The position numbers were made by a program, and so were the translations under genes. Below are positions 9,883 to 55,026 of a DNA stretch of 64,000 nt, piece by piece. Below the pieces are notes generated by a model. That model made no database searches, was not told the origin of the DNA, and worked only from the letters and a program-made list of their open reading frames with translations. Each line of letters begins with the position of its first letter. Positions within the stretch are counted from its first letter, which is position 1. Source of the stretch: Fodinibius sediminis (GTDB lineage: Bacteria > Bacteroidota > Rhodothermia > Balneolales > Balneolaceae); the NCBI RefSeq assembly GCF_900182555.1, contig NZ_FXTH01000011.1, positions 62,001 to 126,000 on the forward strand. Direction: 5' to 3'.

Positions 9883-10905
9883 ATGTGGTTATTAAACGAA
9901 ATGCATGGGAAGCGAATTCTCCTATTAGGAACGGTTTTGGTTTTGGCGGCTTTGGGTTATATGGTGACTACGCAGTATTACCAAAGTACTCCAATTGCTG
10001 ATAAATCGAACCCCGAAGAACTATTTGACAGAATCAATAACGATGATCCTGATGTTTATGAGCCAGCGGTACTTGAGTTGGCAGAACGGGGTTCAGAGGC
10101 GTTGATTGCAGTAATTCCACGACTCAAAGACGATAATCAGTTTGGCAAAGTGATTGCCGTTCTTGAACAACACGATATTTCTAAGCTTATTCCCATTGAA
10201 AAGCCGGTGGTCAAGGCAAATCAGGGTGGTGAAAAAAAAGTATTGATTGTCACTGGCCATGAATATCCGGGGCATCTCTGGCAGCGCACCGCTCCGGCGC
10301 TGGTCGATATATTGGCGGAAGATGCGCGGCTGGAGGTAAGTTATGTGGAAGATCCGCGTATTCTTGCTCAGCCTGAGCTAAACAACTATGATGTAATCTT
10401 TCTGAATTATCAGAATCACCAGGTGCCTGCTCCGCAGGGAGCACTGAATAATCTCAAACAGGTTATCAAAGGTGGCAAAGGGCTGGTGCTATTTCACTTT
10501 GCAAGTGGTGCCTTTATTGACTGGGAGACACGACAGTTGAATACCGAGTTTGCAGAAATCGCCGGCCGGGCATGGAATCCTGATCTTCCCGGTCATGATC
10601 CACGTGGCCCCTTCAAGGTGCGAATAACTGATACAGAGCATCCAATTACAAAGGGACTTTCGGATTTTGAAACCATAGATGAACTCTACACCTGCCTTGA
10701 TGGTACTGTCCCAATTCAGGTGTTGGCTAAGGCAACTTCCATCATGGACAACGAAGACCATCCAATGGCTTTTGTGCATAAAGCGGGCAATGGCCGTGTT
10801 TTCCATTCTCCGCTTGGCCATGACTTGGAAGCATTGAACGACCCCGTTAAGGAACTATATCGGCGTGGCACTCAATGGGCGGCAAAATTGGAGGTAGATG
10901 ATTAA
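9883..10905 (+). CDS. ThuA-domain protein with N-terminal membrane anchor
   Basis: This 340-residue protein has a hydrophobic N-terminal segment (about residues 9-29, RILLLGTVLVLAALGYMV) that would place it in the periplasm. A HEAT-like stretch follows at about 40-105 (DDPDVYEPAVLELAERGSEA). The ThuA fold, a class-I glutamine-amidotransferase-like domain, spans about 120-335 (VLIVTGHEYPGHLWQRTAP, YDVIFLNYQNH, GKGLVLFHFASGAF, HPITKGLSDF, GNGRVFHSPLGHD). ThuA-type proteins occur with sugar oxidoreductases that make or use 3-keto-sugars, but their exact reaction is not settled. ATG 9901 is a possible alternative start. G+C rises abruptly inside this gene at about 10250 (37 of 60 at 10261-10320), marking the end of the AT-rich block. 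Confidence 0.85.
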   Translation: MWLLNEMHGKRILLLGTVLVLAALGYMVTTQYYQSTPIADKSNPEELFDRINNDDPDVYEPAVLELAERGSEALIAVIPRLKDDNQFGKVIAVLEQHDISKLIPIEKPVVKANQGGEKKVLIVTGHEYPGHLWQRTAPALVDILAEDARLEVSYVEDPRILAQPELNNYDVIFLNYQNHQVPAPQGALNNLKQVIKGGKGLVLFHFASGAFIDWETRQLNTEFAEIAGRAWNPDLPGHDPRGPFKVRITDTEHPITKGLSDFETIDELYTCLDGTVPIQVLAKATSIMDNEDHPMAFVHKAGNGRVFHSPLGHDLEALNDPVKELYRRGTQWAAKLEVDD

Positions 10906-13878: not shown

Positions 13879-14877
13879 ATGAGTTTAGTCAATCAAATTA
13901 TGTTTACATCCCGACTGCTTCTAACTTTTTATTTTTTGATTACAATTTTGTTTTATTCTTGTGCACACACAAATAATGAATCAAACATGCAAGCCGGGGT
14001 TTATGAAGAACACCACATACTATTTATAGCTGGCAAAGCTTCACATGGATTTGGCGAACACGAACACTTAGCCGGTAGTAAGCTTTTGGCCGCAACTATC
14101 GAAGAAGGAAATATTGGAATCAGAACTACGGTAATTAGCAATTGGCCTGAAGACGATTCTATTTTTGATAATGTGGACTCCGTGGTAATCTACTCAGACG
14201 GTGGTCCCGGCCACCCAATCATGGATCATTTAGAAAGTTTCGAGGAGGTAATGGACCGCGGAGTAGGATTTGTAACGTTGCATTACGCGGTTGTGGTACC
14301 ACCGGGAGAGGCGGGTGATCTTTTCCTGGAATGGCAGGGCGGTTATTTTGAAACCCATTGGTCGGTAAATCCTTTCTGGACTACAAAGATTACCGGTTAT
14401 CCAGATCATCCGATCAGTAATGGTGTCGGGGAAATTTCTATCCGGGATGAATGGTATTTTCATATGAGATTTTCGGAAAATGACGGAGAACTCACACCCA
14501 TCCTTACGGATCTTCCGCCGGAAGAAACTCTTACCACACGTGATGACGGTCCTTACTCCAATAATCCGTATGTTCGGGAAGCCGTTCTGGAAAATAAAGA
14601 AGAACAGCACATGGCATGGGCTTATGAAAGGTCAAACGGGGGGCGATCTTTCGGTTTTACTGGCGGCCACTATCACTGGAACTGGGGAGTCGAAAATTTC
14701 AGAAGGGTAGTTGTCAATGCCATCGTCTGGTCAGCCGGTGTTGAAGTTCCACCAGAAGGCTTGCAATTTTCACCAATCGATGTACTCGAACTCGCTGAAT
14801 TCATAGATGATCCGAATCCCGAAGATTGGAATCCTCAACCTATACAGGATATGTTGGATGAAGCTAACCAATATTAA
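13879..14877 (+). CDS. ThuA-domain lipoprotein
   Basis: This 332-residue protein has a lipoprotein signal peptide (hydrophobic TFYFLITILFYSC, lipidated Cys about residue 28 from ATG 13879). ATG 13900 would give a more compact signal. The ThuA fold spans about 45-290: HILFIAGKASHGFGEHEH, VVIYSDGGPGHP, GVGFVTLHYAVVV, HPISNGVGEISIRDEWYFHM, and a C-terminal FGFTGGHYHWNWGVENFR. Related proteins are often annotated as trehalose-utilisation proteins and occur with oxidoreductases of keto-sugar metabolism. This is the second ThuA protein of the locus; it differs clearly from the one at 9883, so it is not a recent duplicate. A 160-base gap separates it from the isomerase gene that follows. Confidence 0.85.
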   Translation: MSLVNQIMFTSRLLLTFYFLITILFYSCAHTNNESNMQAGVYEEHHILFIAGKASHGFGEHEHLAGSKLLAATIEEGNIGIRTTVISNWPEDDSIFDNVDSVVIYSDGGPGHPIMDHLESFEEVMDRGVGFVTLHYAVVVPPGEAGDLFLEWQGGYFETHWSVNPFWTTKITGYPDHPISNGVGEISIRDEWYFHMRFSENDGELTPILTDLPPEETLTTRDDGPYSNNPYVREAVLENKEEQHMAWAYERSNGGRSFGFTGGHYHWNWGVENFRRVVVNAIVWSAGVEVPPEGLQFSPIDVLELAEFIDDPNPEDWNPQPIQDMLDEANQY

Positions 14878-24226: not shown

Positions 24227-26440
24227 ATGAAACGACAAAGAACGGCTGAATCAGGATTATGTCTGCTCCTGTTGGTGTTCCTGTTACCGGGAGCTGCCTG
24301 CCATGCAGCTGAGAGCGGAAGTGATACTGTGTCTGACCTTGAGCTGCTGCGGAACCGATTTGTGAAGGAACTGCTTGAACCGGATGTGAACAGCGATCAC
24401 ATCCGGGAGTTGCTCGAAACCGTAGAGCCGGCGGGATTCTGGCCCGACATAAATTATGAAGATACATCCAGGACGGCCTTTGAACACAGCCGTCACTTGA
24501 GTAATATGCTTGCGCTGGGAAGAGCGTACAGGAAGAAAGAGTCCCCCTATTATAAAGAACCGGAAGTCAAGAAGGCTGTTCATTCGACCCTCGATTTCTG
24601 GCTTAAGCATGACTTTATCTGCGAGAATTGGTGGTGGAATCAAATAGGAACCCCGGAGCGCATTGGAGACCTTCTGCTGATTATGGATGATGAGCTCACC
24701 GCCGAGCAACAGGCAAAAGCAGCGCCTATTGTGGGACGGGCCAACCTGGATGCCTGGGGGGCTCGGCCGGGGGGCGACCTGATTAAGATTGCAGGGATTC
24801 TGGGAAAATATGGAATATTTGCGGGCGACCGCAACATCCTGGAGCAGGCCATTACAGCTATTGCCGGAGAGATAGAGTTTGCTGTTGAAAGGGGAGATTC
24901 AACCGACATGAGGGGACTGCAGACAGATTACAGCTTCCATCATCGCCATGATCGTGTAACTTCAACCCTGACATATGGACACGGCTTTGCCCGTTACTTT
25001 GTTGACTGGGCTTACAAAGCCAGGGGTACCTCTTTTAGCTTTCCGGCCGAGTCAATTGAAATGCTGGTAGACTTTTACCTGGATGGAATCATCAAGACCA
25101 TGGCTTTTGTAACCTACCCTGATCTCGGAGCAAAAAACCGGGGGATAACGCGGCGGGGATCACTTTCGGCCTACAGCGCAGATGTCCCGGAAAAACTGCT
25201 TCGGATTACGTCGTACCGGAATCGTGAGCTGGCAGCTATTGCCGGTATACGCCGGGGAGAGCAGGACCCCGCCCTGGAGAGCAGTCGATTTTTCTGGCAT
25301 ACGGAATACTATAGTCATCAGCGGCCGGACTATTTTGCTTCGGTCCGCATGTATTCTTCACGCAACCACAATATGGAGGTTCCTTATAATGGGGAGGGAT
25401 TAAAAAACCATCACCTGGGCGACGGCTATACCTTTATTACCCGGACCGGGCAAGAGTATAGGGGCATTTTCCCGGTGTGGGACTGGCAAAAGATACCGGG
25501 AACCACCGTAATCCAGAAGCCGGCGCTGCCGGCTCCCGACCAGGTGCAGCAGGCCGGGGTGACTGAATTTGTGGGAGGGGTTACAGATGGGATGTACGGG
25601 GCTGCCACCTTTGATTTCAGGAGTCCTGTTGATCCGCTGGAAGCCCGGAAATCCTGGTTCTTCTTTGATGAAGAGTTTGTCAGTCTGGGAGCTGGCATCA
25701 ATGCGTCGTCTGAACACCCCGTCGCTACGACCTTGAATCAGAGTTTGTTAGCAGGGGAGGTGATTTCAGGAGGACCGGAAGGTAGGGAGAGCCACGTCCG
25801 GGGCACCCATCATTTAAAGGAGATAAGATGGGTGCACCATGATAAAACTGCCTACATCTTTCCCGAACCGACTACGGCCCGCCTCGAAAACAGAAGACAG
25901 AGAGGTGAGTGGGATGCTATTAACAATCAATTCTGGGCAAAGACATTAGAGGAAGTACAAAAAGATGTTTTTACCTTGTGGATCGATCACGGCGTGGCTC
26001 CCAGGCAGGCGCGATACGAATATATTGTCGTTCCCGGCATAGCGGCCACCGAAGTTCAGCGGTATCGGGAGAGCTCCCCCATCCACATACTGGCCAACTC
26101 ACCAAGAATACAGGCCGTACATCACAGAAGGCTAAACATCAGCCAGATTGTATTTTATGAACCCGGTCGGGTAGAGATTGCAGAAGGCATCAACCTGTCT
26201 GTGGACAATCCGGCTTTGGTAATGGTTGAAAGGACAGGCGGGAAGGTAGCGAAAATCACCGTTTCGGATCCGACCCGGCGGTTGACCACATACCAGCTGC
26301 AGATTAGCTCCGGTGCTGAGCCTGGACCTGTAGATGCTAAACAGGTAAGATGGAATGAGGATGAGGGGACCGCTACCGTTACGCTCAACCTGCCCCAAGG
26401 TGAGTATGCCGGGCAAAGCGTCAGCGTAGACCTGCTGTGA
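24227..26440 (+). CDS. Polysaccharide lyase family 8 (chondroitinase/hyaluronidase-like)
   Basis: This 737-residue protein has a signal peptide (about 1-27, ending CHAA). An alpha/alpha toroid follows at about 35-370 and a beta-sandwich region at about 385-737. PL8 hallmarks are visible: ENWWWNQIGTPERIGDLLL near 130, DYSFHHRHDRVTSTLTYGHG near 234 (candidate catalytic His and Tyr), and SSRNHNMEVPYNGEGLKNHH near 384. After those come GDGYTFITRTGQEYRGIFPV and WQKIPGTTV. PL8 enzymes cleave chondroitin sulfate, hyaluronan or xanthan by beta-elimination. Three sulfatases directly upstream favour a sulfated glycosaminoglycan-like substrate, but the exact polymer is not readable from sequence. Length fits the family. 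Confidence 0.9.
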   Translation: MKRQRTAESGLCLLLLVFLLPGAACHAAESGSDTVSDLELLRNRFVKELLEPDVNSDHIRELLETVEPAGFWPDINYEDTSRTAFEHSRHLSNMLALGRAYRKKESPYYKEPEVKKAVHSTLDFWLKHDFICENWWWNQIGTPERIGDLLLIMDDELTAEQQAKAAPIVGRANLDAWGARPGGDLIKIAGILGKYGIFAGDRNILEQAITAIAGEIEFAVERGDSTDMRGLQTDYSFHHRHDRVTSTLTYGHGFARYFVDWAYKARGTSFSFPAESIEMLVDFYLDGIIKTMAFVTYPDLGAKNRGITRRGSLSAYSADVPEKLLRITSYRNRELAAIAGIRRGEQDPALESSRFFWHTEYYSHQRPDYFASVRMYSSRNHNMEVPYNGEGLKNHHLGDGYTFITRTGQEYRGIFPVWDWQKIPGTTVIQKPALPAPDQVQQAGVTEFVGGVTDGMYGAATFDFRSPVDPLEARKSWFFFDEEFVSLGAGINASSEHPVATTLNQSLLAGEVISGGPEGRESHVRGTHHLKEIRWVHHDKTAYIFPEPTTARLENRRQRGEWDAINNQFWAKTLEEVQKDVFTLWIDHGVAPRQARYEYIVVPGIAATEVQRYRESSPIHILANSPRIQAVHHRRLNISQIVFYEPGRVEIAEGINLSVDNPALVMVERTGGKVAKITVSDPTRRLTTYQLQISSGAEPGPVDAKQVRWNEDEGTATVTLNLPQGEYAGQSVSVDLL

Positions 26441-28081: not shown

Positions 28082-28639
28082 ATGGACAGACGATCTGCAT
28101 TAAGGAATATGGCTTTGCTGGGGGGAGGCCTGTTGCTGGCTCCATCCTGTACGGTGAGTGAAGAGCGCGTATCCATAGCGCTCAACAATCTGAATGTTAC
28201 CGGGAGACAGGAACAACTGCTTTCCGAGGTGACAGAGACCTTTATCCCGACAACCGATACCCCGGGGGCTCAAGCCCTCAATATTCACCATTTCGTACTG
28301 GTGATGGTGGATGACTGCCGGAATGAGCAGGATCAAAAAGCATTTGTTGGGGGACTGGATCAGATTGAACAGGCAGCGAAGGATCGATATGAAGCTTCCT
28401 TTTCATCATGTACGGCCTCACAGAAAGAAGAGGTGATAGCAGGACTGATGGGTGATCAATCAGAAATGCAATCAGCAACGGATAACACCTACCAGCAGGC
28501 CCGGCAGTGTCTGTCCATGACCAAGCGTTATACGATACAGGGGTTCCTGCAGTCGGAATACGTCATGACGAACGAGCTTCCCTACCAGCTGGTGCCGGGT
28601 CATTTTAACGGCTGTGTACCCCTGGAGCAGAAAACGTAA
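28082..28639 (+). CDS. Gluconate 2-dehydrogenase subunit 3-like protein
   Basis: This 185-residue protein starts with an export signal (MDRRSALRNMALLGGGLLLA, followed by PSC) that has both twin-arginine and lipobox features. The body matches the small subunit of gluconate-2-dehydrogenase-type complexes: LLSEVTETFIPTTDTPGAQ near 42, HHFVLVMVDDC near 68, and a Tyr-rich end (FLQSEYVMTNELPYQLVPG). The subunit partners with the FAD-containing GMC oxidoreductase, whose gene begins 38 bases downstream, and helps export and electron transfer. The pair resembles LacC/LacA of the Caulobacter glycoside 3-dehydrogenase. A cytochrome subunit is not encoded next to it, so electron acceptors may be the cytochrome c proteins elsewhere in the window or the genome. 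Confidence 0.9.
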   Translation: MDRRSALRNMALLGGGLLLAPSCTVSEERVSIALNNLNVTGRQEQLLSEVTETFIPTTDTPGAQALNIHHFVLVMVDDCRNEQDQKAFVGGLDQIEQAAKDRYEASFSSCTASQKEEVIAGLMGDQSEMQSATDNTYQQARQCLSMTKRYTIQGFLQSEYVMTNELPYQLVPGHFNGCVPLEQKT

Positions 28640-28677
28640 TTTAATTGTAGCAGAAATAGGCAGAAAGAAACAGACGC

Positions 28678-30387
28678 ATGGCAAACGTAAACATTGACAG
28701 CAAGAACGACCGCACTTTCGACGCTATTGTTATTGGCTCCGGCATGAGTGGTGGATGGGCCGCCAAAGAGCTTACGGAAAATGGGCTGAAGACCCTGGTG
28801 TTGGAGCGTGGGCGGGATGTGAAACATGGCGACTATCCCACCACCAACATGATGCCCTGGGAGTTCAAACACCGCGGTGAGATACCACTTGAGGTTCAAG
28901 AAGAAAATCCCGTGATAAGCCGCTGTTATGCCTTTAAGGAGGATGCCCAGCACTTTTTTGTCAAGGATACCGAGCACCCCTATGTGCAGGAGAAACCCTT
29001 TGACTGGATTCGCGGCTACCAGGTGGGGGGCAAGTCGCTGCTGTGGGCCCGGCACACCCAGCGCTGGAGCGAATATGATTTTGAGGGACCGGCACGGGAT
29101 GGTTTTGCGGTCGACTGGCCGATCCGGTACGAGGATATTGCTCCCTGGTACAGCCATGTAGAGAAATTTGTCGGCATCTCCGGCAATGAGGATGGCATCC
29201 CGCAGCTTCCGGACGGAGAGTTTTTACCGCCGATGGAGCTTAGCTGTGTTGAGAAATACTTTAAGAAGCAGATGGCCGAACAGTACCCTGAGCGGCCGGT
29301 CATCATTGCACGCTGCGCCCATCTGACCGAGCCCCAGCCTATTCACCTGAAACAGGGAAGGGGCAAATGCCTGCATCGTAATTTATGCCAGCGCGGATGT
29401 CCGTTTGGGGCCTATTTCAGCAGTAACTCTTCGACGATCCCGTGGGCGCGTGATACCGGTAATCTTACCCTGCGGCCTCATTCCGTTGTACATTCTATTA
29501 TCTATGATGAAGACAAGGGCCGGGCTACGGGCGTTCGTGTAGTAGATGCCAACAGCAAGGAGATGATCGAGTATTACGGCCGTACGATTTTTGTTAATGC
29601 GAGTGCGCTCAACACGAATATGATCCTGTTGAATTCTACCTCGAACCGTTTCCCCAACGGCTTGGGTAACGACAATGGATTACTGGGCAAGTATGTAGCA
29701 TTTCACAATTACCGGGGTAGGATATCAGCCGAATACGAAGGCTTTATGGACAAGACGACCTCCGGACGGCGGCCCACCAGCGGCTATATCCCCCGCTTTC
29801 GTAATGTTTTCAGTCAGGAAACTGACTTCCTGAGGGGCTATGCCGCAGGTTTTAGTGCCCACCGCTCATCCCAGCGCGACACCGATCATCTCGGAGCATC
29901 GCTTAAAGAGAGCCTGTTGAATCCGGAACCCGGCCCCTGGCGGGTGGGGTCGCACATCATGGGAGAAACCATTCCCAAGGAAAGCAACTACGTATCCCTT
30001 CATCCCGACAAAAAGGATGAGTGGGGCATGCCGCAGCTTAATGTCTCGGTCGATTATGACGACAATGATGAGAAAATGCTTGAAGACTTTTTCGTTCAGC
30101 TTTCCGAAATGTATGAGTCGGCCGGTTTCAAAAATATCAGAACCAGTGACAGCGAACAGGCCCCGGGACTGGACATTCACGAGATGGGCGGGGTGCGCAT
30201 GGGCAAAGATCCCGAGACTTCTCTGCTCAACAAATGGAATCAGCTGCATAAGTGCCAGAATGTGTTTGTGACTGACGGCGCCTGTATGACATCGACGGGA
30301 ACACAGAACCCGTCGCTCACCTACATGGCACTGACGGCCCGCTCTGCCAATTATGCAGTGGAGGAGATGAAAAAAGGGAACTTGTAA
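28678..30387 (+). CDS. GMC-family FAD oxidoreductase (candidate glycoside 3-dehydrogenase)
   Basis: This 569-residue GMC oxidoreductase has an N-terminal FAD-binding fold (AIVIGSGMSGGWAAKELTEN near residue 16, LVLERGRD near 40). GYQVGGKSLLWARHTQRW lies near 113, a Cys-containing insert near 230-245 (KCLHRNLCQRGCPFGAYF), HEMGGVRMGKDP near 500, and the C-terminal FAD segment FVTDGACMTSTGTQNPSLTY near 530. It has no signal of its own and would be co-exported by the subunit-3 partner encoded upstream. Such pairs oxidise sugars at C3 or C2 in the periplasm. The ThuA, Gfo/Idh/MocA and isomerase genes in the first locus are the kind of enzymes that consume 3-keto-sugars, so a common pathway is inferred. 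The substrate is not determined. Confidence 0.92.
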   Translation: MANVNIDSKNDRTFDAIVIGSGMSGGWAAKELTENGLKTLVLERGRDVKHGDYPTTNMMPWEFKHRGEIPLEVQEENPVISRCYAFKEDAQHFFVKDTEHPYVQEKPFDWIRGYQVGGKSLLWARHTQRWSEYDFEGPARDGFAVDWPIRYEDIAPWYSHVEKFVGISGNEDGIPQLPDGEFLPPMELSCVEKYFKKQMAEQYPERPVIIARCAHLTEPQPIHLKQGRGKCLHRNLCQRGCPFGAYFSSNSSTIPWARDTGNLTLRPHSVVHSIIYDEDKGRATGVRVVDANSKEMIEYYGRTIFVNASALNTNMILLNSTSNRFPNGLGNDNGLLGKYVAFHNYRGRISAEYEGFMDKTTSGRRPTSGYIPRFRNVFSQETDFLRGYAAGFSAHRSSQRDTDHLGASLKESLLNPEPGPWRVGSHIMGETIPKESNYVSLHPDKKDEWGMPQLNVSVDYDDNDEKMLEDFFVQLSEMYESAGFKNIRTSDSEQAPGLDIHEMGGVRMGKDPETSLLNKWNQLHKCQNVFVTDGACMTSTGTQNPSLTYMALTARSANYAVEEMKKGNL

Positions 30388-51431: not shown

Positions 51432-52136
51432 ATGGAACCTGTCGTACAAATTTCATTAGATCTGACCAATATCGATGAAGCCCTAAAAACAGCTTCCATG
51501 GCATTGCGAGCCGGGGTCGACTGGCTTGAAGCCGGGACTCCGCTGATACTGGCCGAAGGTCTGCACGGGGTTCGAAAGCTGAGAGAGGCATTTCCGGAAA
51601 CGCCTGTGGTGGCTGATCTGAAAACGATGGACGGGGGCTATCTGGAGGCTGAAATGATGGCCCGGGCGGGAGCGACTCATGTGGTCGTTATGGCGCGGGC
51701 TCATGAGGAAACCATAAAATGTGTGGTACAGGCGGGCCGGGATTTTGGCGTGAAAGTCATGGGAGATAATTTGGCCTGTCTCGATATGATTGCCGGTGCA
51801 AAACGCCTGGAAGCGCTGGGATGTGATTATGTAATCCATCATATAGGCTATGACGAGCGAAGAGGCATTGCCGCACGGGGAGAACGAAAGCCCAGCCCGA
51901 TGGATCAGCTTAAAGAGGTTATTCAGGCAGTCAATGTGCCCGTTCAGGCGGTAGGGGGATTAAGCCTTGAAGAAGCGGTTCGTTGTCCGGAAATGGGAGC
52001 CCCCCTGGTGGTATTGGGAGCTCCCCTCACCATTGACGCTGATGCGTTTAAGACAGCTGAGGGGAATGTGGAAGATTCACTTCGGTTAATCTGTGAAAAA
52101 GTACATTCCTACGGGGACGTGAAAATAGAGGCTTGA
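51432..52136 (+). CDS. HPS/KGPDC-like orotidine-5'-phosphate-decarboxylase-superfamily enzyme
   Basis: This 234-residue cytoplasmic TIM barrel is of the HUMPS/KGPDC group. The metal/catalytic motif VVADLKTMDGG covers Asp62, Lys64 and Asp67; VQISLDLTN at the start supplies the first strand Asp, WLEAGTPLI near 31 the conserved Glu, and QAVGGLSLEEA near 172 and VVLGAPLT near 195 the phosphate-binding loops. Relatives are 3-hexulose-6-phosphate synthase, an aldolase using formaldehyde, and 3-keto-L-gulonate-6-phosphate decarboxylase. No 6-phospho-3-hexuloisomerase gene is adjacent, which argues against formaldehyde fixation; two dehydrogenases and a TIM-barrel isomerase follow, which fits a ketose-phosphate degradation route. 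The 176-base upstream gap is AT-rich near the start and probably carries the module promoter. Confidence 0.85.
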   Translation: MEPVVQISLDLTNIDEALKTASMALRAGVDWLEAGTPLILAEGLHGVRKLREAFPETPVVADLKTMDGGYLEAEMMARAGATHVVVMARAHEETIKCVVQAGRDFGVKVMGDNLACLDMIAGAKRLEALGCDYVIHHIGYDERRGIAARGERKPSPMDQLKEVIQAVNVPVQAVGGLSLEEAVRCPEMGAPLVVLGAPLTIDADAFKTAEGNVEDSLRLICEKVHSYGDVKIEA

Positions 52137-52196
52137 GGCAATCGGGGGATCTGCGCTTTCTAATCGAATTTTTAATGGAAAAGTAAAATACGTTTC

Positions 52197-53222
52197 ATGA
52201 AATCAGCAGCGGTTGTTAATTATGCGCCTGAAGAAGGTGCCGTTGAAATTCGCGAGATAGACAAACCAGCTATAGGAAAGGAGGATGTACTGCTTGACGT
52301 TTCTCATGTGGGCATTTGTGGCAGTGACCTTCATCAATGGACGGCCGACCACAGCTGGCCCGTCAACTATCCCGTGGTGCTGGGCCATGAATTCGGCGGA
52401 CATGTTGCAGAAGTCGGGAGCGGGGTTGAGAATTGGCAAGAGGGTGACCGGGTTGTCAGTGAAACGGCTGCGATAATAGATAAGGACAACCCGATGAGTC
52501 GCCAGGGACTCTATAACCTCGATCCTACCCGCAAAGGTTTTGGCTATGGCACTGACGGGGCCATGACGCGGTATGTGCGGGTGCCCGCCCGTTGCCTGCA
52601 CAAGGTGCCGGATGCGATTCCCTTTGAGCATGCCTGCCTGACGGAGCCATGCAGCGTGGCCTATAATGCCGTGGTCGAAAACACACGCATAAAACCGGGC
52701 TACCGGGTTGTAGTGCTGGGGCCGGGCACCATCGGCATACTGTGTGCTGCGATGGCAGGGCTCTGCGGGGCTGAGGTTGCCATTGTGGGACTGAAATCAG
52801 ACGAGCACCGCCTGGATATCGCCGGAGAATATGGCTGTGATACGATCATCGGAGATGCCACCGATTGGGCCAATAATTATGACGGACTGGGGGCTGATTG
52901 TGTGATTGACGCGGCCGGGGTGAGTGCAACTCTTGAAATAGCCCTGGAGCTTGTCCGGCCCAACGGTGCTGTAACTAAAGTGGGGTGGGGGCCTCAGCCC
53001 CTGGATTACTCCCTGGATCCGCTGGTCCAGAAGAATGTGGCACTTCAGGGCAGCTTCAGCCACAACTGGCCGGTGTGGGAACGGGTCCTCTCCCTGATGT
53101 ACACTGGCCAACTGGATGTCAGTCCCATAATCGGTGGCATATGGCCCATCACGGAGTGGCGTACCGCCTTTGAAAAGATGCACAAGGGTGAAATGGTTAA
53201 AAATATTCTTAAACCGGTATAA
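52197..53222 (+). CDS. Zinc-type medium-chain dehydrogenase without structural-zinc cysteines
   Basis: This 341-residue MDR belongs to the sorbitol/threonine-dehydrogenase branch. The catalytic-zinc ligands are present: VGICGSDLHQW near residue 38 (Cys), VLGHEFGGHV near 61 (His, Glu) and ACLTEPCSVAYNAV near 142 (Glu). The NAD motif is VVVLGPGTIGILCAA near 168. The loop that normally carries four Cys for structural zinc reads ETAAIIDKDNPMSRQGLYNL, with no Cys, so that zinc is absent. The enzyme probably oxidises or reduces a polyol, ketose or sugar acid in the cytoplasm. It lies between the HPS/KGPDC-like gene (60-base gap) and the SDR gene, which starts only 5 bases after its stop, indicating one transcript. 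Confidence 0.92.
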   Translation: MKSAAVVNYAPEEGAVEIREIDKPAIGKEDVLLDVSHVGICGSDLHQWTADHSWPVNYPVVLGHEFGGHVAEVGSGVENWQEGDRVVSETAAIIDKDNPMSRQGLYNLDPTRKGFGYGTDGAMTRYVRVPARCLHKVPDAIPFEHACLTEPCSVAYNAVVENTRIKPGYRVVVLGPGTIGILCAAMAGLCGAEVAIVGLKSDEHRLDIAGEYGCDTIIGDATDWANNYDGLGADCVIDAAGVSATLEIALELVRPNGAVTKVGWGPQPLDYSLDPLVQKNVALQGSFSHNWPVWERVLSLMYTGQLDVSPIIGGIWPITEWRTAFEKMHKGEMVKNILKPV

Positions 53223-53227
53223 AATTT

Positions 53228-54031
53228 ATGCGACTGAAAGATAAGGTCATTATTGTCACCGGCAGCACTACGGGTATCGGCAAAGCCATCGCAGTGCGAT
53301 GTGTGGAAGAGGGGGCCCGCGTTGTTGTCAACGGGCTTAGCCAGAGTGAAGGGGAAGCGGTAGTGACAGAGCTGGGCAGGGACAGGGCGATATTGCATGT
53401 CGGCGACATCAGCGACCCGGAGACACCAAAAAAACTGGTGGATGAGGCGTTGACGGCTTTTGGCCGGCTGGATGCCGTTGTGAACAATGCAGCGATGGTT
53501 GTTTCATCAAACATACATACTACCGATAGTCAGCTGCTGCACAAGGTATTCGGGGTTAATGCCGCCGGGCCTCTGGCTCTCGTCAAGACGGCCTTGCCCC
53601 ACCTTGGCAAAACCCGGGGGTGTGTGCTTAATATTGGGTCGGTCAACGCCTATAGCGGGGAGCCGGAGCTGTTGGCTTACAGTATGTCAAAGGGGGCGCT
53701 GATGACGATGACCCGTAACCTCGGGGATGTGCTTTTCCGGGAAGAGGGGGTGCGGGTAAATCAAGTCAACCCGGGCTGGGTGCTTACCGAGAATGAAACA
53801 ATCCGAAAACACAACCACGGGCTGGACGAGGACTGGTACAAGGAACTACCGAAGAGATATGCGCCCGCAGGACGTATTTTATGGCCGAAAGAGATCGCAG
53901 CTGCGGCCATCTATTGGCTGAGTGATGAAAGTGGTCCCGTATCCGGGCAGGTTGTTGATCTGGAGCAGTATCCTTATATAGGAAGAAATGCCCCCAAGGA
54001 TGAGACCACCATCCCGAAAGATGGAGATTAG
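53228..54031 (+). CDS. Short-chain dehydrogenase/reductase
   Basis: This 267-residue classical SDR has the cofactor motif VTGSTTGIGKAIA (TGxxxGIG, residues about 10-20), VVNNAAMV near 88, catalytic Ser in LNIGSVNAYSGEP near 138 and the YSMSKGAL pair (Tyr about 155, Lys about 159). It likely oxidises or reduces a sugar, sugar acid or polyol using NAD(P). It starts 5 bases after the MDR gene. The combination of two different dehydrogenases with a ketose-phosphate lyase and an isomerase suggests successive redox steps at two carbons of one substrate. The start at ATG 53228 fits the family N-terminus exactly. Confidence 0.92.
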   Translation: MRLKDKVIIVTGSTTGIGKAIAVRCVEEGARVVVNGLSQSEGEAVVTELGRDRAILHVGDISDPETPKKLVDEALTAFGRLDAVVNNAAMVVSSNIHTTDSQLLHKVFGVNAAGPLALVKTALPHLGKTRGCVLNIGSVNAYSGEPELLAYSMSKGALMTMTRNLGDVLFREEGVRVNQVNPGWVLTENETIRKHNHGLDEDWYKELPKRYAPAGRILWPKEIAAAAIYWLSDESGPVSGQVVDLEQYPYIGRNAPKDETTIPKDGD

Positions 54032-54135
54032 CCAGGATATCGCCCTATTTTTGCTTCAATGTGTCTCCACCCAGCAAATGATTTGATAAGGAATGAATAT
54101 TTTACAGCTATTACTCAATTACTGATTACAAGCGT

Positions 54136-55026
54136 ATGCCCAGGTTAGCCGTATTTCCCAAAGCATTTATGCAACAGCTATGTAAAGATGGAACGATGAG
54201 CGTATCCGAGTGGATTACGCTTGCCGCAGAACTGGAGGTCGATGGCCTGGAATGGTATTCCGGTTTCCTGGAGATGGCCGATGAATCCAACTGGGCAAAA
54301 TTTCGCCGTCAGGTGCACAGCCATGATAAAGAGATTCCCATGATGTGCTGCTCACCCGATTTCACGCATCCTGATGCCGGCTTCCGGGAAAAAGAAATTG
54401 AAAAACAGAAGTACTGGATCGACATGACAGATGAGCTGGGCGGTTCCTACTGCCGGGTTTTGTCGGGCCAGCGACGCCCTGAATTGTCTATGGGGGAGGG
54501 ACTGGATTTCGCGGCAGAAAGCATCAAGGCGTGCCTGCCCTATGCTGCTGAACGGGGTATCACCCTTATATTGGAAAATCATTACAAGGACGACTTCTGG
54601 GAGTATCCCGAATTTGCACAGAAGATGGAGGTGTTTTGTAAACTTGTAGATCGGATACATCATCCGAATTTTGGCGTCAATTATGATCCCAGTAACACGT
54701 ATCTTGCCGGAGAGGATCCGCTCGAACTCCTTCGCAGGGTTTCGGATCGTGTTGTAACAATGCACGCCAGTGACCGGTACCTGACGGAAGGAACGCTGGA
54801 AGACCTCCGTAAAGAGGAATCAGGGGTGGAGGGATATGCCCGCAGATTGAGCCACGGGGAGATTGGCCAGGGGCTGAACGACTATGATGCGATCTTCAGG
54901 GAATTGAAAAAGGCTGGATTTAACGGGTGGGTAAGTATTGAGGATGGAGTGGAAGGTATGGACCAGCTGGAACGGAGCGTAGCCTACCTCAGAAAGAAAA
55001 TATCCCATTACTGGCCGGAAGAGTAG
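54136..55026 (+). CDS. Sugar phosphate isomerase/epimerase family TIM barrel
   Basis: This 296-residue cytoplasmic protein has metal-site motifs of the xylose-isomerase-like family: LEVDGLEWYSGFLEM near residue 35 (Glu), ITLILENHYKDDFWEYPEF near 140 (Glu), FGVNYDPSNTYLAGEDP near 180 (Asp), VVTMHASDRY near 206 (His) and GWVSIEDGVEGMDQ near 260 (Glu). It ends the four-gene module and could be the epimerase or isomerase acting beside the HPS/KGPDC-like enzyme, much as UlaE accompanies UlaD in L-ascorbate use. It is not closely similar to the two other TIM barrels in the window. The 182 bases that follow contain no recognisable gene. Confidence 0.87.
   Translation: MPRLAVFPKAFMQQLCKDGTMSVSEWITLAAELEVDGLEWYSGFLEMADESNWAKFRRQVHSHDKEIPMMCCSPDFTHPDAGFREKEIEKQKYWIDMTDELGGSYCRVLSGQRRPELSMGEGLDFAAESIKACLPYAAERGITLILENHYKDDFWEYPEFAQKMEVFCKLVDRIHHPNFGVNYDPSNTYLAGEDPLELLRRVSDRVVTMHASDRYLTEGTLEDLRKEESGVEGYARRLSHGEIGQGLNDYDAIFRELKKAGFNGWVSIEDGVEGMDQLERSVAYLRKKISHYWPEE

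Follow-up and report, generated by a model that had tools for sequence, protein, structure and literature searches.

Decarboxylation of an oxidised sugar acid by a HUMPS-family enzyme, combined with a TIM-barrel epimerase and a kinase, is the logic of the L-ascorbate/gulonate clusters, in which a 3-keto-L-gulonate-6-phosphate decarboxylase (KGPDC; UlaD or SgbH) goes with an FGGY kinase and an L-ribulose/xylulose-5-phosphate 3-epimerase; the FGGY-UlaD-epimerase set is annotated, for example, on two Pantoea plasmids. HxlA, the hexulose-6-phosphate synthase (HPS) of the ribulose monophosphate (RuMP) cycle, is a further relative. Here we describe a cassette of four genes from Fodinibius sediminis that shares this logic and the same suprafamily of orotidine monophosphate (OMP) decarboxylases. 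It lies in a stretch of 64,000 nucleotides (contig NZ_FXTH01000011.1, positions 62,001 to 126,000), hereafter the window, and combines the HUMPS gene with a medium-chain (MDR) and a short-chain (SDR) dehydrogenase/reductase and a TIM-barrel gene (TIM):

51432-52136, + strand: HUMPS-family enzyme (OMP decarboxylase suprafamily), 234 amino acids (aa), PF00215, in a clade of its own; proposed 3-keto-sugar-acid decarboxylase.
52197-53222, + strand: zinc-type MDR dehydrogenase, 341 aa, PF08240 and PF00107; proposed sugar-acid or polyol dehydrogenase, perhaps oxidising C3 of an aldonate.
53228-54031, + strand: SDR dehydrogenase, 267 aa, PF13561; proposed aldose (3-keto-aldose) 1-dehydrogenase.
54136-55026, + strand: xylose-isomerase-like TIM barrel, 296 aa, PF01261, probably metal-dependent; proposed pentulose epimerase or isomerase.

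The genes are separated by 60, 5 and 104 bases, and the coordinates, strand and Pfam content of their open reading frames (ORFs) agree with the original prediction of a head-to-tail set, made from the letters of the window. The HUMPS protein scores 74.5 bits against PF00215 (gathering score 27) and thus belongs to the OMPdecase/HUMPS superfamily; the MDR carries ADH_N and ADH_zinc_N, the SDR adh_short_C2 (151 bits) and the TIM barrel AP_endonuc_2 (138 bits). The best NCBIfam matches of all four proteins are below their cut-offs. For HUMPS these are HxlA (TIGR03128, an equivalog; 144 bits, cut-off 200) and UlaD (64.6 bits, cut-off 294), so that the UlaD/UlaE pair invoked in the original prediction survives at most as an analogy. 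The MDR is nearest to L-threonine 3-dehydrogenase (Tdh; 180 bits, cut-off 380) and then to IolM (170, cut-off 450), its nearest solved structures being Tdh 2d8a followed by sorbitol dehydrogenase 1pl6; the SDR to PRK06198 (207, cut-off 240) and glucose 1-dehydrogenase PRK07231 (189, cut-off 215); and the TIM barrel to IolO (37, cut-off 300). At the expected structural zinc position, the MDR (52197-53222) has the stretch DKDNPMSRQGLYNLDP. The cysteine-rich structural zinc segment that we take to be typical of Tdh-type enzymes is missing from it.

Conservation of the set was examined in other genomes. A contig scan for HUMPS relatives returned at least 570 stretches at E ≤ 1e-3, some of them perhaps from other HUMPS proteins; the 80 best loci (81-88% identity across nearly full length) were kept and pooled with loci from sampled genomes, and 81 loci had the required 5 kb or more after the HUMPS gene. 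MDR, SDR and TIM follow HUMPS in the same order, on the same strand and within 6 kb in 69 of these 81, a count taken mainly over the closest HUMPS relatives and not over a random draw, with some near-copies and without independence among loci. Two loci (L091 and L113) are second copies within one genome. Fifteen short loci that duplicate longer ones or are devoid of cassette genes (L001-L003, L084, L093-L103) and the duplicates L088 (= L004) and L090 (= L063) were left out, as were homologue rows with less than 45% identity, less than 85% coverage, or translations containing stops or X.

Of the twelve remaining loci, seven lack TIM, one is a HUMPS-TIM pair and four have HUMPS without the other three genes downstream. 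Eleven of the twelve genomes do encode TIM (69-81% identity), unlinked to HUMPS except in G455, where it is a neighbour. Among the Verrucomicrobiota exceptions (G490, G446, G443, G455 and G479), four of five also have MDR (75-77%) and SDR (62-67%); the MDR of G490 lies 1.8 kb upstream of HUMPS, and the other MDR and SDR genes are unlinked to it. Hence, genomes keep the full set even where its genes are not neighbours. Protein distances between loci also rise and fall together across the four genes (r = 0.51 to 0.81 for pairs of genes, over the 72 loci that have the full set). Altogether, the four genes are a real co-inherited module, and the idea that they would not co-occur elsewhere clearly fails.

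G479 is the only exceptional genome without MDR, SDR and TIM. Its HUMPS protein (L112, 73% identity) may have another job; by sequence inspection, the gene abuts a convergent transporter-like ORF.

The module is accessory and patchily distributed. At E ≤ 1e-40, cassette matches were found in 7 of 247 genomes sampled from the phylum of the window, the window genome counted, and in 10 of 240 sampled around G248, the Verrucomicrobiota genome of an Opitutae locus, which is itself counted. In the tree, the second copy of the window genome groups with Fodinibius roseus (Balneolaceae), and four changes of phylum label are needed where the minimum is two; this is compatible with some horizontal transfer without proving it. 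The possibility of a plasmid-borne copy was discarded, as the 170 plasmid records with a match all stay below 60% identity. No publication on the four-gene set was found in the open-access literature, the part of the literature searched (subscription papers lie outside it). The set thus stands as undescribed within that scope, and its gene content fits the sugar-acid or ketose pathway that had been proposed for it.

Which genes accompany the cassette? Starting from cassettes with at least three genes, we followed up to three same-strand ORFs (140-1100 aa) per side across gaps of up to 250 bases; loci with fewer cassette genes and ORFs outside that size range were left out. The walk yielded 114 ORFs, of which 113 were scanned (a 159-aa ORF, L091:4821-5297, was left out), and 114 random ORFs more than 3.5 kb from cassettes served as control. 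Adjacent ORFs comprise 12 SMP-30/SGL lactonases, 12 Gfo/Idh, 8 MFS, 7 PF06439 (3-keto-disaccharide hydrolase), 4 Gluconate_2-dh3 and 4 GMC proteins, and, more rarely, PfkB (3), FAD_oxidored (3), SSF (2) and SusD (2). The distant set has 4 MFS and 3 Gfo/Idh; SGL and PF06439, being outside the 25 families listed, number at most 2 each, and BLAST found one PF06439 relative there (L031). With the control taken at its worst case, Fisher tests give P = 0.005 for SGL and P = 0.014 for Gfo/Idh.

Individual loci are consistent with this association. A PF06439 gene (30.6 to 175 bits, cut-off 26.8) lies between MDR and SDR in L085, L143 and L146, the genomes of the latter two having HUMPS elsewhere. The second cassette copy of the window genome reads GMC, Gluconate_2-dh3, Gfo/Idh, PF06439, HUMPS, MDR, SDR, TIM, PfkB kinase and MFS transporter, and by sequence inspection SusC- and SusD-like ORFs precede the cluster; spurious overlapping ORFs were ignored in reading this copy and L085. 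In L087, from the family of the window itself, the order is PF06439-like, HUMPS, MDR, SDR, TIM, GMC, Gluconate_2-dh3-like, a deacetylase-like ORF and an FGGY pentulose kinase. GMC and Gluconate_2-dh3 occur nearby on the cassette strand in the second copy, L087, L058 and L074, and GMC alone in L035, where the contig ends.

A count over genomes points in the same direction. PF06439 matches at E ≤ 1e-8 are present in 96 of the 247 genomes of the phylum sample, and 27 have nine or more; all seven cassette genomes are among these 27 (P = 9e-8). Larger genomes have more of everything, and 12 candidates were scored per genome; when only genomes with a match and a size of 3.9 Mb or more are compared, which partly allows for size, 25 of 56 have nine or more and the association remains (P = 0.002). 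Machinery for 3-keto-glycosides, which the original prediction had not named, is the recurring partner of the cassette.

The described pathway of this kind (LacABC or GlycDH with DUF1080 or OGE/HYD) resembles several cassette clusters in its GMC and Gluconate_2-dh3, Gfo/Idh, PF06439 and TIM-barrel genes. The known form, however, reduces 3-keto-glucose to glucose (PMC10628242). The decarboxylase-type enzyme and the two additional dehydrogenases of the cassette suggest an oxidative exit instead. Our tentative proposal, to which we give a little less than an even chance, is a cytoplasmic pathway in which oxidised aldoses, mostly 3-keto-aldoses from periplasmic 3-keto-glycoside cleavage, are turned into pentuloses by oxidative decarboxylation. 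Its steps would be as follows:

(i). The SDR would oxidise C1 of a 3-keto-aldose to a lactone, which an SMP-30 lactonase or spontaneous hydrolysis would open to a 3-keto-aldonate. We favour an acid intermediate because of the lactonases, a GntR-FCD regulator directly upstream of the cassette in L104 (with a 64% identical relative in L106) and, in L046, a DASS anion symporter that follows the SDR.

(ii). Starting from an ordinary aldonate, the MDR could arrive at this 3-keto acid as well, and the cassette would then be self-contained. The MDR is placed at C3 because Tdh turns a 3-hydroxy acid into a 3-keto acid, which is established chemistry.

(iii). HUMPS would remove CO2 from the beta-keto acid through a metal-bound enediolate, as in KGPDC. 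By simple stereochemistry, 3-keto-gluconate should give D-ribulose and 3-keto-galactonate D-xylulose, and C2 epimers would converge, as the C2 stereocentre would be lost.

(iv). The TIM barrel would epimerise or isomerise the pentulose, and a kinase of the PfkB or FGGY type, whose gene is in some cases close by, would act before or after, so that the pentulose could enter the pentose phosphate pathway.

The gene set itself, its conservation, its co-occurrence in genomes and its neighbours are established; substrates, step order and phosphate on the HUMPS substrate are all read from neighbours and family logic, and several observations speak against the proposal. The sampling of loci described above is one of them. 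Substrates of the SDR and MDR are assigned by distant homology. Taken alone, the adjacency of PF06439 (7 versus up to 2) is only suggestive (P = 0.083, worst-case control), and MFS transporters (8 versus 4) are not enriched (P = 0.18). In most loci neither PF06439 nor a lactonase or kinase adjoins the cassette; all three are missing beside the window copy, and the second copy has PF06439 and PfkB without an adjacent lactonase. A tblastn search of the window found no relative of the PF06439 protein of the second copy or of the L089 lactonase, and none of four query kinases (E ≤ 1e-6), in keeping with the lack of an adjacent kinase remarked upon earlier. An FGGY pentulose kinase is over the TIGR01315 cut-off in only one of seven cassette genomes of the phylum sample and in four that are cassette-free. 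Known 3-keto-glucose pathways end in reduction to glucose (PMC10628242). For 3-ketogalactose, Price et al. (PMC9007349) call its fate unknown and suggest reduction.

If the oxidative proposal is true, the consequences would be of some breadth. Periplasmic cleavage of 3-keto-glycosides is a widespread, non-classical way of opening glycans, and a transferable oxidative-decarboxylative exit would fill a gap in the fate of 3-keto sugars; the cassette may be the missing exit route for those made by many bacteria in plant and algal glycan breakdown. Many genes that family models place nearest hexulose-6-phosphate synthase would need re-annotation, and the OMP decarboxylase suprafamily could gain a new substrate class. 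A bolder version seems rather unlikely, with some real chance of being right: HUMPS would take a sugar acid without phosphate, a first for the suprafamily, and would join the two dehydrogenases and the TIM barrel in an oxidative pentose route that is kinase-independent up to decarboxylation. This route would be the oxidative way out that has been missing for 3-keto sugars in Bacteroidota, Balneolota and Verrucomicrobiota, and glucose and mannose, being C2 epimers, would both end up as D-ribulose in it.

The HUMPS enzyme itself was examined next to UlaD and HxlA. Cassette HUMPS proteins form one separate clade with support 1.0 in a tree of 14 rows that includes two UlaD and two HxlA proteins, and the window protein is 28% identical to the two Pantoea UlaD and 33% to the two HxlA. 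Residues D10, E33, D62, K64, D67 and H137, for which we assume the catalytic roles of their KGPDC counterparts, are invariant in 19 rows, and the D-x-K-x-x-D motif (D62-K64-D67) is present. Three further positions are those changed in the KGPDC mutant E112D/R139V/T169A of the PDB 1xbx title. Mapped through alignments, the window protein has D112, Y140 and V174 there, each found in at least 90% of the 19 rows. The Pantoea UlaD proteins have E, R and T, and the two HxlA proteins D, Y/L and A; L112 (the G479 protein), one cassette-type relative, has E at position 112. Given D/Y/V at these positions, the active site looks more like that of HxlA than that of UlaD, and to that extent argues against simple decarboxylation by the UlaD mechanism. 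Unlike the UlaD/SgbH clusters, moreover, the cassette has two built-in dehydrogenases and usually no adjacent kinase, in addition to its low identity to UlaD, its sub-cut-off score and the absence of the E/R/T signature.

Likeness to HxlA has its own limits. Cassette HUMPS shares with HxlA the D and Y/L at two active-site positions, and the HPS-PHI fusion 9lj9 is its nearest fold, together with KGPDCs, for an AlphaFold2 (AF2) model with a pLDDT of 88.7. In contrast to HxlA, it carries an extra loop (RRGIAARGER..PSP), an insertion after HHIGYDxR, and within its clade N113 and R143 are invariant. HxlB, the partner isomerase of HPS, is over its cut-off in none of 16 cassette genomes, all of which have weak sub-cut-off matches, and in 5 of 14 controls. 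The window genome likewise has only such weak matches, which bears out the earlier remark that this isomerase is missing. RuMP formaldehyde fixation by the cassette was set aside as unlikely because of this count.

A related alternative is that HUMPS works in the retro direction as an HPS-like aldolase: a 3-keto-aldose would be reduced at C1 to a 3-hexulose by a dehydrogenase, phosphorylated by PfkB and cleaved to a pentulose phosphate and formaldehyde. Positions 112/139/169 and the best sequence match, both HxlA-like, would suit such an enzyme, as would the PfkB gene directly after TIM in the second copy. We regard it as highly unlikely, since kinases are rarely adjacent (PfkB in 3 of 113 ORFs), HxlB is absent above cut-off, and the lactonases imply an acid rather than a reduced C1.

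Whether the HUMPS substrate carries phosphate is a separate matter. Characterised HUMPS enzymes take phosphorylated substrates, and it is conceivable that PfkB phosphorylates the 3-keto-aldonate first, as 2-keto-3-deoxygluconate (KDG) kinase does its keto acid, so that HUMPS makes ribulose or xylulose 5-phosphate directly. The GG...G glycines of the phosphate site are kept in the cassette proteins, and the PfkB of the second copy weakly matches keto-acid kinases (5-dehydro-2-deoxygluconokinase 84 bits, KDG/KDGal kinase 55.6), its best match being fructokinase (102), all under cut-off. The phosphate site reads, however, as an invariant Gly-Ala-Pro-Leu, with the invariant Pro198 right after Gly-Ala; this carries little weight as an argument, because the Pro comes one residue past the backbone amides that bind phosphate and pLDDT falls below 50 in loop 198-208. 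The TIM epimerase would be left without an obvious job, and the kinase of L087, a pentulose kinase, would act after decarboxylation. We thus hold phosphorylation of the acid to be unlikely.

Kinase genes do lie near some copies of the cassette. PfkB genes are close to it in the second copy and in the Verrucomicrobiota loci L017 and L023, and the L087 kinase scores 661 bits against TIGR01315 (cut-off 408.7). A fixed FGGY pentulose kinase partner was rejected on the TIGR01315 counts given above. Some 9 kb ahead of the window start lies an FGGY-type kinase (G000:C11:51128-52756) that scores 180 bits against TIGR01315, which is under its cut-off, and that is a candidate for pentulose phosphorylation. 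A different HUMPS-family gene is found on a Shinella plasmid (L120, NZ_OZ012605.1), in the company of a SIS-domain protein, a PfkB kinase, two SDRs, a sugar ABC transporter and a LacI regulator.

The dehydrogenases might also act after decarboxylation. L-Xylulose to xylitol to D-xylulose is the reaction pair of the animal pathway, and in a bacterial glucuronate-xylulose route, 3-keto-L-gulonate derived from uronate or L-gulonate would be decarboxylated by HUMPS to L-xylulose, reduced to xylitol by the SDR as an L-xylulose reductase and reoxidised to D-xylulose by the MDR. The MDR does match sorbitol and xylitol dehydrogenases (1pl6, 7y9p), and the window encodes a polysaccharide lyase of family 8 (PL8), which we assume would release unsaturated uronates. 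On the other side, the cassette has no fixed gene for a gulonate 3-dehydrogenase, the 60 best SDR matches listed include none named as an L-xylulose reductase, and the recurring lactonases and PF06439 point to aldose oxidation. This route appears distinctly unlikely.

The TIM barrel, modelled with a pLDDT of 92.7, has among its nearest solved folds the Art22 isomerase, SCO6571, the 2-hydroxy-3-keto-glucal hydratase AtHYD (8ro4), IolE, D-tagatose 3-epimerase and UlaE, all at 20% identity or less. In a profile search, Art22 is the top match (6e-14); tagatose epimerases and AtHYD follow at 1e-5 to 1e-3. All 47 rows keep E147, D184, H210 and E269 (L050 and L074, two of 48 proposed rows, are left out), and these residues reproduce the E-D-H-E site of D-tagatose 3-epimerase-like barrels; we take them to be metal ligands, after the pattern of ketose 3-epimerases. 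H149, two residues past E147, resembles the arrangement in the AtOGE eliminase, where catalytic His134 comes after metal ligand His132 (PMC10628242). The fold search fits an epimerase as well as a hydratase or lyase, and the function may be either.

IolO as the first NCBIfam match of TIM and IolM as the second of the MDR raise the option of cyclitol or other ring-sugar catabolism, with an IolM-like inosose dehydrogenase and an IolO/IolE-like barrel. The Thermotoga IolM-IolN-IolO inositol pathway has in common with the cassette an MDR and an IolO-like barrel. The scores are, however, far under the cut-offs, HUMPS is not known to be part of the Thermotoga system, and cyclitol catabolism would leave HUMPS and PF06439 without a role; we find the option hardly credible.

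Between the two cassettes of the window genome, the TIM genes (54180-55000 and L091 6331-7209) show 90-100% DNA identity in each block of 100 bases over 54201-55000, with 100% identity over 54201-54500; blocks of the other three genes range from 64 to 90%. This is a trace of recent gene conversion or recombination confined to one gene.

As the original prediction held, the cassette lies in the window amid sulfatases and dehydrogenases: Pfam shows sulfatases, a PQQ dehydrogenase, a DUF7133/cytochrome c protein and a GMC dehydrogenase with Gluconate_2-dh3. The features referred to below are:

24227-26440: polysaccharide lyase family 8 (PL8), among sulfatases.
28082-28639, + strand: Gluconate_2-dh3 subunit, PF13618.
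28678-30387, + strand: GMC oxidoreductase, PF05199/PF00732, 32% identical to the GMC protein of the second-copy cluster.

The GMC/Gluconate_2-dh3 pair (28082-30387), 21 kb from the cassette, is a possible upstream partner, although its link to the window copy is conjectural. The window has 11 sulfatase-like ORFs (five confirmed by Pfam, the rest by sequence inspection), and a search with them as queries found sulfatase ORFs in 7 of the 72 loci that span 15 kb or more. Sulfated glycans were therefore rejected as a general substrate source: the cassette is not specific for them. The suggestion of an oxidised sugar released from a sulfated glycan retains local value, in view of the many sulfatases of the window and of a sulfatase between SDR and TIM in L143, and does not hold as a rule. 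For the window locus, the PL8 lyase presumably suggests a glycosaminoglycan-like substrate.

Promoter-like sites around the cassette are not in excess (3, shuffle mean 4.0), and a Bacteroidota-type promoter pattern has three sites in the window and none near the cassette. Terminator-like sites number 11 against a shuffle mean of 3.1; three of them are on the + strand, namely 51222, near the end of the upstream gene, and 53476 and 54439, inside genes. Elsewhere in the window, two ThuA-domain proteins (9883-10905 and 13879-14877) lie near a Gfo/Idh gene and two TIM-barrel genes, a region that is possibly another 3-keto sugar cluster.

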